64,000 bases of DNA from Lacibacter cauensis (GTDB lineage Bacteria > Bacteroidota > Bacteroidia > Chitinophagales > Chitinophagaceae): assembly GCF_007830055.1 (NCBI RefSeq), contig NZ_VLLE01000004.1:463248-527247 (forward strand), given 5' to 3'. Every line of letters begins with the position of its first letter. Within the stretch, counting starts at the first letter, position 1. Positions 8,172 through 13,933 of this stretch are shown here, in pieces. Both the position numbers and the translations under genes were made by a program. The notes beneath the pieces are model-generated. The model saw only the letters and a list, made by a program, of their open reading frames with translations, made no database searches and was not told the DNA's origin.

Positions 8172-9281
8172 TTAAAACAAACTCGTCTGCATCCCCGGCC
8201 TACTGAACTTTGTTCTGTCCAAACTCCATTCTTCTGCATTCATGCCATAGAGCTTCCCGTATTTTTTATACTGCTGCGCCACCAGTTGTGCAATAGGTCC
8301 TTCGCCACGCATGCGTACACCAAAGCGTGTATCGTTTACTTTTCCATCATGACTGTGTTCAATATGATGCCAAACTTTATCGGCACGGTCAGGGAAGTTT
8401 TTATACAACCAGTCGTGAAATAAAAATTTGATGGCACCATTCAACCGAATGAATGTGTAAGCAGTAAACGTTGCACCGTTATCTCTTGCTGCTTTCATGA
8501 TGCGTTGCATTTCGTGTTCGTTCAGCCCGGGTATCATGGGCCCCATCATAATACCCATGCGTACACCGGCACTGCTGAGTTCGTTAATCACTTTCAGTTT
8601 TGCTTTTGCTGTAACTGTTCGTGGCTCCATTACTCTTCGCAGGTCTTCGTTGAAGGATGTGATGGATACCATGGCCGATACAATATTTTTCTTTCCCATT
8701 TCCTGCAGCACATCTTTGTCTTTGAGTATCCATGCATTTTTGGTGAGGATGCCAACCGGTTGATTAAACTCATTACATACTTCTAAAAGTCCTCTTGTTA
8801 AACGATAGGTTTGTTCAGCAGGTTGATAGCAATCGGTATTACCGCTGAGCATGATAGGTGTAGCATCCCACTTCGGATGCATTAAAAATTTACGCAGCAG
8901 TTGTGCTGCATTTTTCTTCACCAATATTTTTTGCTCAAAGTCCATACCTGCACTATAGCCCCAGTACTCATGCACATTGCGTGCATAACAGTAAATGCAA
9001 CCGTGTTCGCAACCGGCGTAGGGGTTCATGCTGTAGCTCATCCCCACATCAGGACTTTCCACTTTGTTCACAATGGTTTTCGGATGCACTTCGATGTATT
9101 GTGTTTTGAGATTTGTTTCTTCCCATTCATCAATGCCTTCGATGTGTTCTTTGGTGACTTCGTTTTTTAAAAAGCGGTTCTTAGTGTTAAACTGTGCACC
9201 ACGGCCGGCATGATACGGTTGCGTTTCATCGGCATCTTTCGGTTTTACTTTATAATGATCCTGTTGTAGTTTATCTGACAT
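8172..9281 (-). CDS. PA0069/Rv2578c-type radical SAM protein
   Basis: A 369-residue radical SAM protein with the 4Fe-4S cysteine motif CEHGCIYC (C91, C95, C98), followed by YARNVHEYWG as in the PA0069 family, distantly related to spore photoproduct lyase. The ATG at 9281 is preferred over a start 26 codons upstream. The last five residues are QTSLF (365-369), the form of a sliding-clamp binding motif. From memory, PA0069 belongs to the LexA regulon of Pseudomonas aeruginosa, and the neighbours here include UmuD and UmuC homologues, so a role in DNA damage response is likely. The reaction is unknown. Confidence 0.85.
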   Translation of the reverse strand: MSDKLQQDHYKVKPKDADETQPYHAGRGAQFNTKNRFLKNEVTKEHIEGIDEWEETNLKTQYIEVHPKTIVNKVESPDVGMSYSMNPYAGCEHGCIYCYARNVHEYWGYSAGMDFEQKILVKKNAAQLLRKFLMHPKWDATPIMLSGNTDCYQPAEQTYRLTRGLLEVCNEFNQPVGILTKNAWILKDKDVLQEMGKKNIVSAMVSITSFNEDLRRVMEPRTVTAKAKLKVINELSSAGVRMGIMMGPMIPGLNEHEMQRIMKAARDNGATFTAYTFIRLNGAIKFLFHDWLYKNFPDRADKVWHHIEHSHDGKVNDTRFGVRMRGEGPIAQLVAQQYKKYGKLYGMNAEEWSLDRTKFSRPGMQTSLF

Positions 9282-9402
9282 GGAAAAAATTGTGAACGGT
9301 GAATAGAAATACTGTTGTACAAGAGTGCGACGCCAATTCAGCTTAATAGCAGCACACAACTCTGTTGCATACTATCTCGTTTTCTTTTTTGCTCTTTAAC
9401 TC

Positions 9403-10026
9403 TTAGCCAAATAAGTCTCCCTGCTTTGTGGTGACGGCAAGGTTCTGAAACTCCAACCGCCGTACGATCTGGTAACGCTGTTCGTTCAACGGTCGTTTCA
9501 GCAAGAGCATTCCATCGGCAATAAAACGCCCGGTGAAATGTTTGTGACTGTATTCGAGCCAGCCTTTTTCGTATTGCCAGGGTTCGAGCTTGCGTGCAAT
9601 AGTGAGGTGCGGCTCAAGAATGAAATGCGGTTTGTTATCGTCGTTGAGTTTCATGAGTCGCTGTGCTTCCGTACGAATGGTTTTCACCAATGACTGTATG
9701 GGCAGCTTACTCACTAAATTGATATAAATTGTGTGCGAAGGAAAACTGCCGTAATCACGCAACTCCACTTTCAATGGATGAAAACCCATAGCGATCATGT
9801 TGAGGCGGTTGACCAAGCGTTCTTCCATGAGTTCGTACTGCAGAAAGTTGGCAAGTGTAATGTGTGGCTTGCCCCACTTTGCATAATCGTTCTTGTACTT
9901 TTCTGAAAATTCTGTTTTCACTTTTACAATACGATTACCTAATTCTTCATGCGGACTTAATACGAACAGATACTCGTACACACGATAGCCGGGAATAGTA
10001 GCGGTTGTGATTGATTGTAATTGCAT
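9403..10026 (-). CDS. 2H phosphoesterase (2'-5' RNA ligase family)
   Basis: A 207-residue protein with the two HxTx-type motifs of the 2H superfamily, PHITLANF (H55) and PHLTIARKL (H140). Members hydrolyse cyclic phosphodiesters or act as RNA 2'-5' ligases; the substrate here is unknown. The C-terminus carries QGDLF at residues 202-206, one residue from the end, matching a clamp-binding pentapeptide. The ATG at 10026 is preferred to an upstream TTG at 10035. It is divergent from the UmuD gene across a palindrome-rich 302-bp region. Confidence 0.85.
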   Translation of the reverse strand: MQLQSITTATIPGYRVYEYLFVLSPHEELGNRIVKVKTEFSEKYKNDYAKWGKPHITLANFLQYELMEERLVNRLNMIAMGFHPLKVELRDYGSFPSHTIYINLVSKLPIQSLVKTIRTEAQRLMKLNDDNKPHFILEPHLTIARKLEPWQYEKGWLEYSHKHFTGRFIADGMLLLKRPLNEQRYQIVRRLEFQNLAVTTKQGDLFG

Positions 10027-10099
10027 AACAAACAATTTTAAATTTTTGATTGGCGATTTTAGCTATGCACACGCATTACGCTTTGCTGCATTGTTTCTA

Positions 10100-10113
10100 T
10101 TGTATCAATACAA
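10100..10113. promoter_or_regulatory. palindrome TTGTAT-CA-ATACAA
   Basis: A perfect 14-bp palindrome in the divergent region between the 2H phosphoesterase and umuD genes. A candidate operator; the binding protein is unknown. Confidence 0.4.
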
Positions 10114-10162
10114 CAGCAGTGCAAACGATGCACAAATAGTTCCGGCTTGTTTGTAGTGTACG

Positions 10163-10182
10163 TCAATCAGCGTACTGATTGA
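10163..10182. promoter_or_regulatory. palindrome TCAATCAG-N4-CTGATTGA
   Basis: A perfect inverted repeat with 8-bp arms in the umuD upstream region. A candidate operator for a dimeric repressor. Confidence 0.45.
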
Positions 10183-10198
10183 TGGGATGAGTTTGAAT

Positions 10199-10257
10199 TA
10201 GTGCAGTTGAAAAAAATATTTTCGTCAATTGCACTACTAAATTACTAAAAGTTTTAG
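10199..10257. promoter_or_regulatory. inverted repeats upstream of umuD
   Basis: TAGTGCAGTTGA (10199-10210) and TCAATTGCACTA (10225-10236) pair with one mismatch around an A/T-rich 14-bp spacer. A second palindrome, CTAAAA-G-TTTTAG, lies at 10245-10257. Both sit 70-130 bp before the umuD start. Candidate SOS-type operators; no LexA box consensus for this clade was applied. Confidence 0.45.
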
Positions 10258-10328
10258 CTTTACCAAACTTTCTTACAAACCCAGACATACTTTTTTATCA
10301 CACTCCAAGAGAGAAAAATTTATTCATT

Positions 10329-10766
10329 ATGGATGGGGAAGATTTTTTTGGCAGCGCTTATAAAGGCAGTAAACAGTTTACACAACAACAGGTACGTACA
10401 GCCAATGCCACGGGCTTTGGTGCAGCAGCCGATGACTATGCCGAACGTGGTATTGATTTGAATGAACAACTCATTAAAAACAAACCGGCTACATTCTTTT
10501 TTAAAATGAAAGGCGATGCCATGGAACAGGCCGGCATTTTTGATGGCGATATTTTAATTGTAGACCGTTCGTTGAAATTGGTGAATGGAAAAATTATTGT
10601 TGCCATATTAAATGGCGAACTATTGGTGCGAAGGTTTCACAAAAATTTTTCATCGGCCTTTCTGATACCGGAGAACACAAGGTACAAGCCAGTGAACCTG
10701 GCGGAGTTTAGTGATTTTAAGGTATGGGGAGTGGTTGTCTACTCCATTCGATCATTGGAAGGATGA
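10329..10766 (+). CDS. umuD: UmuD-like protein lacking catalytic Ser and Lys
   Basis: A 145-residue protein aligning over its length with UmuD: AAADDYAERGIDLNEQLI, then FFKMKGDAM, IFDGDILIVD, and NGELLVRRF. UmuD normally self-cleaves with a Ser/Lys dyad and then forms DNA polymerase V with UmuC. Here the Ser of the GDSM motif is Ala64 (GCC codon), and the Lys of the VKK motif is Arg101. The Cys-Gly cleavage site is Thr-Gly. The protein therefore should not self-cleave. It is followed not by umuC but by REP hairpins and a RAYT gene; umuC starts 840 bp later. Confidence 0.85.
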   Translation: MDGEDFFGSAYKGSKQFTQQQVRTANATGFGAAADDYAERGIDLNEQLIKNKPATFFFKMKGDAMEQAGIFDGDILIVDRSLKLVNGKIIVAILNGELLVRRFHKNFSSAFLIPENTRYKPVNLAEFSDFKVWGVVVYSIRSLEG

Positions 10767-10771
10767 TGCAA

Positions 10772-10803
10772 CCCTGACGGCGGCTACAAGCCCCGTCAGC
10801 GGT
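10772..10803. repeat. REP hairpin 1
   Basis: CCCTGACGGCGGC, a 5-nt loop and GCCCCGTCAGCGG form an imperfect hairpin with a perfect CTGACGG/CCGTCAG stem. It is the first of four related elements around the RAYT gene. Confidence 0.85.
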
Positions 10804-10840
10804 TCATTTAGAATTTATTTATTGCTTTCCATTTTCATCA

Positions 10841-10875
10841 AACCACCGTCAGGGCTGTAAGCCGCTGACGGGGTT
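10841..10875. repeat. REP hairpin 2
   Basis: AACCACCGTCAGGGC...GCCGCTGACGGGGTT. It is the near-exact inverted copy of the element at 11550-11584, so the two bracket the transposase gene. Confidence 0.85.
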
Positions 10876-10896
10876 AAAAAACAACTGATCATCAAT

Positions 10897-11487
10897 ATGC
10901 TCACCGAATCACTTGTTGCAGGAAATTATTATCACATCTTTAATCGAGGTGTGAATAGCGAAGATTTGTTCAAAGAAAAAAGGAATTACTATTATTTCCT
11001 GCAGCAGTATCAATTCTACTGTACTGATGTATTAGAAACATACGCTTATGCGTTGTTGAAAAATCACTTTCATTTGTTGGTATATGTGAAAGAGACAGAA
11101 GCTGTTCTTCGTAAAGACGGTCATGGCGTGTATCAGCCAGATGCTTCAAAACAATTATCGCATTTCTTCAACTCCTATGCACAATCGATCAACAGAGCAT
11201 ATAACAGGACGGGACCTTTGTTTGAATCTGCTTTTAAAAGAAAGCTGATTGATGATGACAGCTATCTTACTTCTGTTATTTATTACTGTCACTATAATGC
11301 GCAATTGCATGGATTTGTAAGCGACTTTAAAGAGTGGGAGTTTTCTTCTTATCACTCAATTGTGAATAACAATACCTCTTTTCTGGCATCTTCAAAAGTA
11401 ACAGACTGGTTTGGAGGAAGAGCATTGTTTGAACAAGCACATGTAAACACCTATGAAAGAAAAGATGCAGCAATTTTTTTTAATTGA
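10897..11487 (+). CDS. REP-associated tyrosine transposase (RAYT, Y1_Tnp family)
   Basis: A 196-residue single-domain HUH-type nuclease of the IS200/RAYT family. Seen: YYHIFNRGVN at the start, the metal-binding HxH in LLKNHFHLLVYVK, and the region VIYYCHYNAQLHGFV holding the probable catalytic Tyr, followed by EWEFSSYHS as in family members. RAYTs cut and join single-stranded DNA at REP hairpins and are single-copy domesticated transposases. Two REP hairpins lie upstream and two downstream. The unit sits between umuD and umuC and probably uncouples them. The reading frame is intact. Confidence 0.9.
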   Translation: MLTESLVAGNYYHIFNRGVNSEDLFKEKRNYYYFLQQYQFYCTDVLETYAYALLKNHFHLLVYVKETEAVLRKDGHGVYQPDASKQLSHFFNSYAQSINRAYNRTGPLFESAFKRKLIDDDSYLTSVIYYCHYNAQLHGFVSDFKEWEFSSYHSIVNNNTSFLASSKVTDWFGGRALFEQAHVNTYERKDAAIFFN

Positions 11488-11505
11488 GTAGGAATTCGTT
11501 TCATC

Positions 11506-11542
11506 AAACCGCCGACGGGGCTACGAGCCGCCGTCGGGGTTT
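11506..11542. repeat. REP hairpin 3
   Basis: AACCGCCGACGGGGC, a 5-nt loop and GCCGCCGTCGGGGTT. It resembles the reverse complement of hairpin 1, with a C-to-T-type change in the stem on both sides that keeps pairing. Confidence 0.85.
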
Positions 11543-11549
11543 AGTACCA

Positions 11550-11584
11550 AACCCCGTCAGCGGTTACAAACCCTGACGGCGGTT
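11550..11584. repeat. REP hairpin 4
   Basis: AACCCCGTCAGCGG and CCCTGACGGCGGTT share a CCGTCAG/CTGACGG stem. Inverted copy of hairpin 2. It ends 22 bp before the umuC start, so it lies in the umuC leader. Confidence 0.85.
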
Positions 11585-11605
11585 CGATGAACAAAGGACT
11601 AACAT

Positions 11606-12961
11606 ATGCCGACAACATTACAATCCATACAAACCGATCTGTTTGCACATCATACTTTGAATACAGGCTACCGCAGCATGTATGCTATTGTTGATTGCAA
11701 CAATTTCTATTGTTCCTGCGAACGCTTATTCAAACCGCATCTCGATAACAAACCGGTTGTTGTACTCAGTAACAACGATGGCTGTATTATCAGTCGCAGC
11801 GATGAAGCCAAAGCATTGGGTGTAGATATGGCGGGGCCTTATTTTATGGCGAAGCCATTGATTAAAAAACACGATGTGGCGGTGTTCAGCAGCAACTACA
11901 ATTTGTACGGCGATTTAAGCATGCGGGTGATGGATACGTTGCGGGTCATCATTGGCGAAGAAAACGTAGAAGTGTATTCGGTAGATGAAGCCTTTGTTGA
12001 TCTCAGCATTTTTCCAACACAAGACCTGGAACGTATTGCACGTGATATGCGGGAAACAGTAGAACAATGGACGGGCATTAAAGTATCCATTGGCGTGGCA
12101 CCAACAAAAGTATTGGCGAAGCTGGCCAATCGCCTATCGAAGAAAAACAAAAAAGAAACCGATTGTGTAATGGTGCTCGATACCGAAGAAAAAATAAGAG
12201 CCGGACTGGAGAAAACACCAGTGGGCGATATCTGGGGCGTCGGTCACCAGTACGCCAAAAAACTAAAAGAGCAATGGTTTATTGATGATGCCTTGCAACT
12301 GAGTAAAATGAGCGAAGAGTTCGGACGAATGCATTTAGGCGGCGTGGTTGGTGTGCGGTTGATTCGTGAACTGAACGGTATTGCATCGAAAGATATGCAG
12401 GACGAGCTCGTTACGAAAAAAATGATCGCTACCACCCGCATGTTCGGCAGCCCTGTTGATAACATTCACGATATTAAAGAGGCCGTTGCTACCTATACAT
12501 CAAGGGCTGCCGAAAAATTAAGACGACAGTACAGCGCCGCCAGCATCATCAGTGTGTTTGTGGTGGCAAAAGGCGAAAACCACAACGTTACGTTTAACCG
12601 GGGTATTACACACAGCAGGTATACTATATTACCTACGGCCACAGCCTTCACCAACGAATTAATTAAACCGGCTGTTGCATTGGTTGATCATTTGTACAAA
12701 AAAGGGACGCAGTATAAAAAAGCAGGGGTGATGTTGAGTGGACTTGTACCCGATGCATCCATACAGGGTAATTTATTTTTACCGGAAACAAAAAACAACG
12801 GACGGTTATTGATGGACATGATCGACAACATCAACTTCAGTCAGCGGGATGATGTATTGAAGTTTGCAGCCAGCGGTACAACAAGAGACTGGAAGATGCG
12901 GCAGGAATTACGCAGTCCACGGTATACAACACGATGGGAAGAGTTATATGAGGTGAAGTAA
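11606..12961 (+). CDS. umuC: Y-family translesion DNA polymerase UmuC
   Basis: A 451-residue Y-family polymerase of the UmuC branch: catalytic acids in IVDCNNFY (D30) and VYSVDEAFVDL (D127, E128), the helix-hairpin thumb region, and an unusual KENHNVTFNRGI-like little-finger part typical of UmuC. It copies damaged DNA as the core of polymerase V. QGNLF at residues 387-391 corresponds to the classical internal clamp-binding site (QLNLF in E. coli). A 24-residue N-terminal extension before the usual MYAIVDCNN start holds a second such motif, QTDLF (9-13); if translation starts at 11678 this would be absent. It is separated from umuD by the RAYT unit and is convergent with the DUF72 gene. Confidence 0.92.
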   Translation: MPTTLQSIQTDLFAHHTLNTGYRSMYAIVDCNNFYCSCERLFKPHLDNKPVVVLSNNDGCIISRSDEAKALGVDMAGPYFMAKPLIKKHDVAVFSSNYNLYGDLSMRVMDTLRVIIGEENVEVYSVDEAFVDLSIFPTQDLERIARDMRETVEQWTGIKVSIGVAPTKVLAKLANRLSKKNKKETDCVMVLDTEEKIRAGLEKTPVGDIWGVGHQYAKKLKEQWFIDDALQLSKMSEEFGRMHLGGVVGVRLIRELNGIASKDMQDELVTKKMIATTRMFGSPVDNIHDIKEAVATYTSRAAEKLRRQYSAASIISVFVVAKGENHNVTFNRGITHSRYTILPTATAFTNELIKPAVALVDHLYKKGTQYKKAGVMLSGLVPDASIQGNLFLPETKNNGRLLMDMIDNINFSQRDDVLKFAASGTTRDWKMRQELRSPRYTTRWEELYEVK

Positions 12962-12970
12962 AGTTATAAC

Positions 12971-12988
12971 CAACCCCGTTAGCAGTTA
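12971..12988. repeat. REP half-site remnant
   Basis: AACCCCGTTAGCAGTTAA resembles one arm of the REP hairpins at 10.8-11.6 kb with two changes. It lies between the umuC and DUF72 stops and includes the DUF72 stop codon. Confidence 0.4.
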
Positions 12989-13933
12989 AAAATCTTTATC
13001 AAACAAACCACGCTGTTTTGGCTTTGGTTTTTCACGCACACCTCCTTCAATAAACTTCGGCTTCATTAAATTCAATCCCATCTCTGTATTCATCTTATCA
13101 ACCAAATAAACGGTAAGTTCAGGCGATGTTGCTTCATCGTGCATATGCATAAAGAAATAAATCTCTTCCATACCCTGCTGTTGCCATTGTTTCATACGTT
13201 GCACCCATACATCGCAACGGGTGTAATCCGATTTGTGCAGGCTGTTGCCTACATATCGGATAAATACCTTCGGCACCGTTACATGCATGTGTGCACAATC
13301 TCTTCGGCCAGCAGTATCGGTAATCACTGCACCAATGTTCAGTTGTTTTAATGTAGTGAAGAGTTCGTTCCGTATTTCTTCTTTACCAAACCAATCGGGG
13401 TGGCGCACTTCTAAAAAGAACTGCAAGTCTTTTGGCAACGATGCCATGTAATCGAACAACTCTTGTTTACGCTTCGGCGAAAAGGTATCACTTACCTGTA
13501 CGAAGATGGGACCCAGATGTTCTTCAAACCCAACAATACCACGGAAGAATTCATTGGTAATAAAATCTTTTCCTGTCAAACTTCCACGGTGTGTTACACC
13601 CTGGTACATCTTTGGGCAAAATTTAAAATCCATTCCCTTTGCTTTCTCTGCCCATTTGCGGATGCCTGCTTCGCCGTATACTTTGTAATGCGTTGCATTC
13701 AGCTCAATGCTGTTATAATGTTGCACATAGTGCTGCAGAAAATCTTTCTCTTTTGTTTTGGGCGGATAGATCTTGCCAACCCATTCTGTTCGTCCCCATT
13801 TGGCACAGCCGAGATATACTTTTGCTTTTGCAACGGCTTTACCGCTGAGCACTGTTTTATTAAATGCTGGCTCTGCAGGTAACGAAAAATCAATGCTGTC
13901 GAGAAGCTGTTCATCAACACGTCCAAATTCCAT
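12986..13933 (-). CDS. DUF72 (YecE-like) TIM-barrel protein
   Basis: A 315-residue DUF72 protein: YLGCAKWGRTEWVGKIYP, HYNSIELNATHYKV, KFCPKMYQGVTHRG, LEVRHPDW and FFMHMHDEA are family hallmarks. The fold is a TIM barrel related to endonuclease IV-type enzymes; activity is unproven. The C-terminus reads QRGLF at 307-311, four residues from the end, again of clamp-binding form. It faces umuC with only 24 bp between stops. It is preceded on its own strand by the DUF779/aldehyde dehydrogenase pair, but its motif and neighbours point to the DNA-damage island. Confidence 0.9.
   Translation of the reverse strand: MEFGRVDEQLLDSIDFSLPAEPAFNKTVLSGKAVAKAKVYLGCAKWGRTEWVGKIYPPKTKEKDFLQHYVQHYNSIELNATHYKVYGEAGIRKWAEKAKGMDFKFCPKMYQGVTHRGSLTGKDFITNEFFRGIVGFEEHLGPIFVQVSDTFSPKRKQELFDYMASLPKDLQFFLEVRHPDWFGKEEIRNELFTTLKQLNIGAVITDTAGRRDCAHMHVTVPKVFIRYVGNSLHKSDYTRCDVWVQRMKQWQQQGMEEIYFFMHMHDEATSPELTVYLVDKMNTEMGLNLMKPKFIEGGVREKPKPKQRGLFDKDF

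Follow-up and report, generated by a model that had tools for sequence, protein, structure and literature searches.

The window analysed here, a 64,000-nucleotide stretch of the ~4.95 Mb genome of Lacibacter cauensis (Chitinophagaceae; contig NZ_VLLE01000004.1, positions 463,248 to 527,247 of the forward strand), carries six neighbouring genes between positions 8172 and 13933 (all coordinates are window positions), four of whose products contain a QxxLF motif resembling the peptide by which bacterial proteins bind the sliding clamp, DnaN. Reading along the forward strand, we find a radical SAM protein of the PA0069 family (rSAM; 395 amino acids, 8172–9359, minus strand; NCBIfam NF033668, 467 bits against a cut-off of 360), whose true start possibly lies further in, followed by a 2H phosphoesterase (2H; 210 amino acids, 9403–10035, minus strand; PF13563 and PF02834, both above cut-off) with the two HxT/S motifs, here both HxT, that mark such proteins. 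Beyond a divergent promoter region come a UmuD-like S24 peptidase (10329–10766, plus strand; PF00717; NF007621, 130.6 bits against a cut-off of 110), a REP-associated tyrosine transposase (10897–11487, plus strand), a UmuC-like Y-family polymerase with DUF4113 (11606–12961, plus strand; PF00817, PF11799, PF13438) and, convergent with the latter, a DUF72 protein (315 amino acids, 12986–13933, minus strand; PF01904, 154.2 bits against a gathering threshold of 25.3). The transposase is flanked on both sides by GC-rich repeats; at three related loci (L124, L125 and L129) UmuD and UmuC are instead separated by a gap of ~37–39 bases.

Direct reading places the motif at five sites, all of them where the preliminary description had put them: QTSLF at the C-terminus of rSAM (codons 8175–8189, minus strand); QGDLF, followed by a single G, at that of 2H (9409–9423, minus strand); QRGLF, followed by DKDF and hence four residues from the end, in DUF72 (13001–13015, minus strand); and, in UmuC, QTDLF within an N-terminal extension (residues 9–13; 11630–11644, plus strand) and QGNLF internally (residues 387–391; 12764–12778, plus strand). 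The same description spoke of four adjacent genes; the motifs are there, but the adjacency is not strict, as UmuD and the transposase lie between and neither has a terminal motif.

To judge how readily such an ending arises, we took the open reading frames (ORFs) of the window together with those of 120 related loci and counted Qxx[L/M]F within their last 12 residues, in two sets (the window plus 40 loci; 80 loci) that have a few genomes in common. Genes of other families carry it in 3/369 and 4/1,188 cases (7/1,557 in total), as against 35/38 and 69/78 for rSAM; the corresponding figures are 18/27 and 11/14 for 2H, 7/9 and 3/5 for DUF72, and 0/17 and 0/9 for UmuD. Within the window itself, no other member of a set of 51 non-overlapping ORFs of at least 100 amino acids has the motif in its last 12 residues, and two others carry it internally. 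In three of the seven background matches the motif stops before the C-terminus, and these look fortuitous; the remaining four end exactly in QxxLF. Two of these four are DNA-damage proteins encoded near an rSAM gene, the O6-methylguanine-DNA methyltransferase Ogt (L145:7914-8447) and an SRAP protein (L270:6153-6980), and two have no established role, a DUF763 protein near an rSAM gene (L212:6344-7555) and a TcmP protein beside one (L132:8959-9813). A search of the organism's own genome with a DNA pattern for Q-x-x-L-F-stop proved too loose to use: it matched 139 + 140 times, and its reversed control 109 + 104 times.

The rSAM tail is the best conserved. Q391 is invariant in 22 order-level sequences, and across 112 distinct Bacteroidota proteins the ending is Qxx[L/M]F in 100, a relaxed form in five, a six-residue form in two, LF lacking the Q in four and none of these in one. 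In an alignment of all 112, built without selecting for the motif (entropies from motif-selected sequences were set aside), Q is kept in 107, L or M in 111 and F in 106, and the entropies of the Q, L and F columns are 0.30, 0.37 and 0.38 bits, compared with 2.6–3.0 bits for the five columns before them. The free positions favour L or M and then K or S, a preference close to the published bacterial consensus QL[S/D]LF (PMC3716654; here and below, papers are cited from the available portions of their text), and we count this in favour of clamp binding. Sampling the phylum more widely (30 further loci, the best-scoring from the 78 of 198 genomes that exceed the family cut-off) gave the strict motif in 23 of 30. 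Beyond the Bacteroidota, all ten relatives fetched from the 74 plasmid-collection records with a match—nine from Pseudomonadota and one Rv2578c-like protein from Actinomycetota—keep the motif, as QxxLF or QxxMF in six and QxxLL in four; phage records gave partial matches only, at <30% identity.

For 2H, the strict motif lies within the last 14 residues of 28 of 41 distinct proteins, with two more (L137 and L195) having QxxLF slightly further in; most of the others are a tandem second copy, found in several genera, which lacks QxxLF and has Q-V-x-V-F near its end (L136:2647-3255, L202:8725-9321, L137:6056-6658, L140:5912-6514). The 28 tail-bearing proteins vary in their catalytic residues, both histidines being present in 14, the second lost in seven, the first in three and both in four (the alignment of the most divergent, L141 and L142, may be wrong). 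Such losses occur even within the window's own genus, close relatives (L124, L125, L128 and L129) having shed histidines with the tail unchanged, which suggests that clamp binding, rather than catalysis, is the constant part of this protein's job.

The DUF72 tail is confined to one clade. Amongst 108 unique proteins (a non-random set, mainly frames of ~300 residues picked before their ends were seen), 33 have QxxLF (26) or, failing that, QxxLxL (7); every one of them belongs to a single clade of 51 (support 0.99), and neither form occurs in the other 57. This clade of long proteins holds the window protein, which scores below the cut-off of the YecE-type model NF007637 (120 against 412) and matches 1vpy and 1vpq by sequence, together with YecE of Escherichia coli and Klebsiella. 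These last two (L283:2007-2825 and L286:1504-2322), proteins of unknown function in the case of E. coli from a model organism, end in QQSSLF; an Aeromonas relative has QGVLPF. The DUF72 proteins of L327, L329, L330 and L341 end in QGxLxL (QGSLNL, QGDLGL or QGNLGL), and endings of this type are like the clamp motif in its six-residue form. The preliminary description had reasoned that a working tail should be conserved over a linker that is not, and that absence of the motif from close homologues would refute the idea; the conserved tail over a variable linker is seen in rSAM, in 2H and in the clade of long DUF72 proteins, and the motif persists in 100/112, 28/41 and 33/51 of their homologues, respectively.

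UmuC differs in that its principal motif is internal. In E. coli UmuC the internal clamp motif is QLNLF, at residues 357–361 (PMC3716654), and QGNLF takes its place here; 22 of 25 distinct UmuC proteins (one of the 25 a fragment) keep Qxx[L/M]F there. With a UmuD-type S24 peptidase and a UmuC that spans the whole of model NF002955 (though below its cut-off, at 361.8 against 431 bits) and retains this site, the pair qualifies as a homologue of Pol V (UmuD'2C). The locus departs from Pol V in the extra N-terminal motif of a few UmuC proteins, in the divergent operon of rSAM and 2H, and in a host genome in which no LexA DNA-binding domain was found (PF01726 at E 0.001; 10 of 14 control genomes match), so that it does not present as a LexA-controlled SOS operon. 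The N-terminal motif retains Q, L and F in all the UmuC proteins that bear it, and the loss of the core's usual start methionine in L129 suggests that the extension is translated.

In 20 regions chosen for having 2H beside rSAM, UmuD is present in 16, UmuC in 16 and DUF72 in six; in 17 other rSAM regions 2H is found in none and a Y-family gene in one. Our picking of neighbours drops some overlapping ORFs (2H in L140 and L201, for instance), and clustering of the other neighbours gave no further gene constantly near rSAM.

Between rSAM-2H and UmuDC, the divergent promoter contains a candidate palindromic operator (10235–10258, no strand assigned), a TACTAAA half-site followed by TACTAAAAGTTTTAGC; half-sites TACTAAA/TTTAGTA or TTTAGC recur in the divergent region of most relatives, with none in L126 as cut. 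The core pattern TACTAAANNNTTTAGY has a single copy in the organism's own genome, at 10243–10258, and stands at the UmuD promoter in 13 of 14 genomes of the genus, including two (G006 and G008) without adjoining 2H or rSAM; in a genome from another family of the order (G044) it lies just upstream of rSAM. The longer pattern TTWGYATAAATWTACTAA, read from some of the genomes and then searched, was found with ≤1 mismatch in 35 of 60 family genomes, at a total of 49 places (reversed control 18), 21 of them exact; the organism's own genome has no copy. Where a place has a locus, 23 of 30 are at the module, as are 16 of the 17 exact ones. A sample nearer to independent is given by the exact matches inspected in genomes new to the analysis, some of which may coincide with the named relatives; these were at the module in 11 of 11 cases (L419, L420, L421, L425, L431, L432, L434, L436, L437, L442 and L447). 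A perfect 8-4-8 palindrome, TCAATCAGcgtaCTGATTGA, at 10164–10183 is likewise operator-like, but among the intergenic regions of relatives it is found in the window alone and we rejected it. Taken together, synteny and the shared operator support treating rSAM, 2H, UmuD and UmuC as one unit. That rSAM and 2H share an operator with Pol V is a genuine arrangement, conserved in many Chitinophagaceae, and we infer that its regulator is other than LexA.

Structure prediction accords with flexible tails. The rSAM model has a mean predicted local distance difference test score (pLDDT) of 78.7 and the 2H model one of 88.5, with the tails lying past the folded cores at low values (averages of 56 over the last five residues of rSAM and 53 over the last ten of 2H). 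Both tails match the QL[S/D]LF / QxxLF consensus at a flexible terminus after a variable linker; the N-terminal UmuC motif fits this description poorly. The 2H fold matches YjcG and LigT-type proteins. That of rSAM best matches spore photoproduct lyase (4fhc; E 2.2e-7, TM-scores 0.54/0.61, 13% identity), and the CxxxCxxC cluster motif is present in 111 of 112 homologues, both features being common to many radical SAM enzymes; a sequence search gave no close relative among solved structures. Against the curated NCBIfam models rSAM matched PA0069 and three related models, with no spore photoproduct lyase model among them, and we therefore regard it as possibly working like that enzyme and do not file it as one.

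The literature offers partial precedents. SplB-like radical SAM genes have been described in SOS neighbourhoods near damage-response polymerases (PMC3765255), and here too a radical SAM protein of SplB-like fold sits beside a mutagenic polymerase; unlike those genes it belongs to the PA0069 family, with no SRAP or ImuB-C among the six genes of this Bacteroidota locus, and the available text of that paper contains no occurrence of 'clamp', 'DUF72' or 'phosphoesterase'. Similarly, a DUF72 gene has been described next to polB2, a damage-response polymerase, with a fold said to be close to that of UV-damage endonuclease (PMC11791011); DUF72 again adjoins such a polymerase here, and what is new relative to the available portion of that account is the tail, confined as it is to a single clade. 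Known bacterial clamp clients with a flexibly placed QxxLF are polymerases (PMC12926913, as far as its available text goes); the motif is the same here, but its bearers are radical SAM, 2H and DUF72 proteins. YecE does not occur in the available part of PMC13254535, and within the open-access literature we found no link between PA0069, 2H or DUF72/YecE proteins and the clamp, an absence that stays unproven as most subscription papers fell outside this scope.

We consider the terminal motifs very probably to be clamp-binding tails, and put at roughly 0.8 the probability that they are DnaN-binding tails within a co-regulated damage-response island. In favour of this reading stand the rarity of the ending in other families against its near-constancy in rSAM; low-entropy motif columns after a variable linker; the motif's persistence in Pseudomonadota and Actinomycetota; and its confinement to one DUF72 clade that includes YecE, alongside a 2H tail kept despite histidine loss. 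The predicted flexibility of the tails, the position of the operator at the promoter and the published DUF72 and SplB-like radical SAM genes close to damage-response polymerases count for it as well. The locus would then comprise two divergent operons, rSAM-2H and UmuD-UmuC, under one shared operator, and at the far end there would in some cases be DUF72. DNA damage would cause a regulator other than LexA to release the shared promoter. UmuC would use its internal motif to dock on the clamp, and rSAM, 2H and DUF72 would use their tails to dock in a pocket of the same kind, bringing lesion processing to the clamp where a site is stalled or gapped. The rSAM reaction would most likely be direct lesion reversal and that of DUF72 incision or other lesion processing, with 2H most likely binding nucleotides or ends, catalysis being dispensable in many relatives.

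Several observations weigh against this interpretation. Seven of the 30 phylum-wide rSAM proteins lack the strict motif (their endings include GTLSLF, GSLSLF and QQELGL), and both QxxLF and QxxLxL are missing from 18 of the 51 proteins in the tail-bearing DUF72 clade (nine end in LF without the Q, nine in neither). The N-terminal UmuC motif is present in 4 of 25 distinct proteins, all of one genus, in an extension that evolves fast (ratio of non-synonymous to synonymous substitution, dN/dS, ~0.6–1.8, against ~0.02–0.06 in the next 100 codons); we do not uphold it as a conserved second clamp site. The term 'tethered enzyme' may not hold for 2H, 14 of whose 28 tail-bearing representatives lack a catalytic histidine, and which may not be an enzyme in all relatives. 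As an operator, TACTAAANNNTTTAGY alone is weak, its reversed control giving 0–6 matches per genome, and in G017, G036, G038, G040, G043 and G045 its matches lie away from the module (the G017 module has a one-mismatch copy of the longer pattern). Finally, in 78 of 116 loci rSAM occurs with none of the other five genes, and the link between DUF72 and the island is loose, the gene being present in the minority of regions given above and having no operator copy found assigned to it. Within these limits the interpretation in the preliminary description is supported, and the tail, given how often rSAM stands alone and how few partners its other regions hold, is a property of the families and not of the island.

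That last set of facts favours the strongest competing account, in which the tails do bind the clamp, each protein being a client in its own right, and the Chitinophagaceae neighbourhood is convenient co-regulation and not one pathway; E. coli yecE, flanked by yecD and yecN and not by a polymerase, is in line with it. Set against it are the single operator common to rSAM-2H and UmuDC across many genera, and the presence of UmuD and UmuC in most of the rSAM-2H regions (chosen, as noted, for 2H beside rSAM), and we hold it to be a credible account that we would nevertheless bet against. We think it improbable that the group acts on RNA at the fork, with 2H, and perhaps DUF72 as well, processing primer or RNA ends on a clamp tether and rSAM being unrelated to lesions: 2H does resemble the LigT-type RNA 2',3'-cyclic phosphodiesterases, but a catalytic histidine is missing from 14 of the 28 tail-bearing 2H proteins, a translesion polymerase stands at the centre of the island and the closest fold to rSAM is a DNA lesion lyase. 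More doubtful again is that the tails bind another partner, or form a structural C-terminal strand, and merely resemble the clamp peptide; LF without Q in some homologues (rSAM 4/112, DUF72 clade 9/51) would suit such a role, against which three unrelated folds carry one and the same Q-x-x-L-F, as does UmuC at its known clamp site, the tails are predicted to be flexible, and part of the misses drift to QxxLL or six-residue forms and not to random ends. Chance coincidence of a short, loose five-residue pattern is conceivable for the UmuC motif at the N-terminus, but conservation over phyla refutes it for rSAM, 2H and long DUF72. Simple arithmetic also speaks against it: at the background rate all three named genes would carry the motif about once in ten million.

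Returning to the proposed clamp-binding tails in a damage-response island, three families without an assigned role—the PA0069 radical SAM proteins, this 2H group and the YecE-type DUF72 clade, one of them represented in E. coli—share a single testable feature, which, if it means what we propose, would place them at the replication clamp and explain their siting beside Pol V. We would give even odds to the broader proposal that PA0069 radical SAM and YecE-type DUF72 proteins are widespread, unrecognised clamp clients, from Bacteroidota to E. coli, which in Chitinophagaceae form one clamp-tethered lesion-processing unit with Pol V and a partly pseudo-enzymatic 2H under a dedicated non-LexA operator, coupling reversal or incision to translesion synthesis at the clamp. 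If so, a genome with no LexA DNA-binding domain could control Pol V and its companions by means of another operator.

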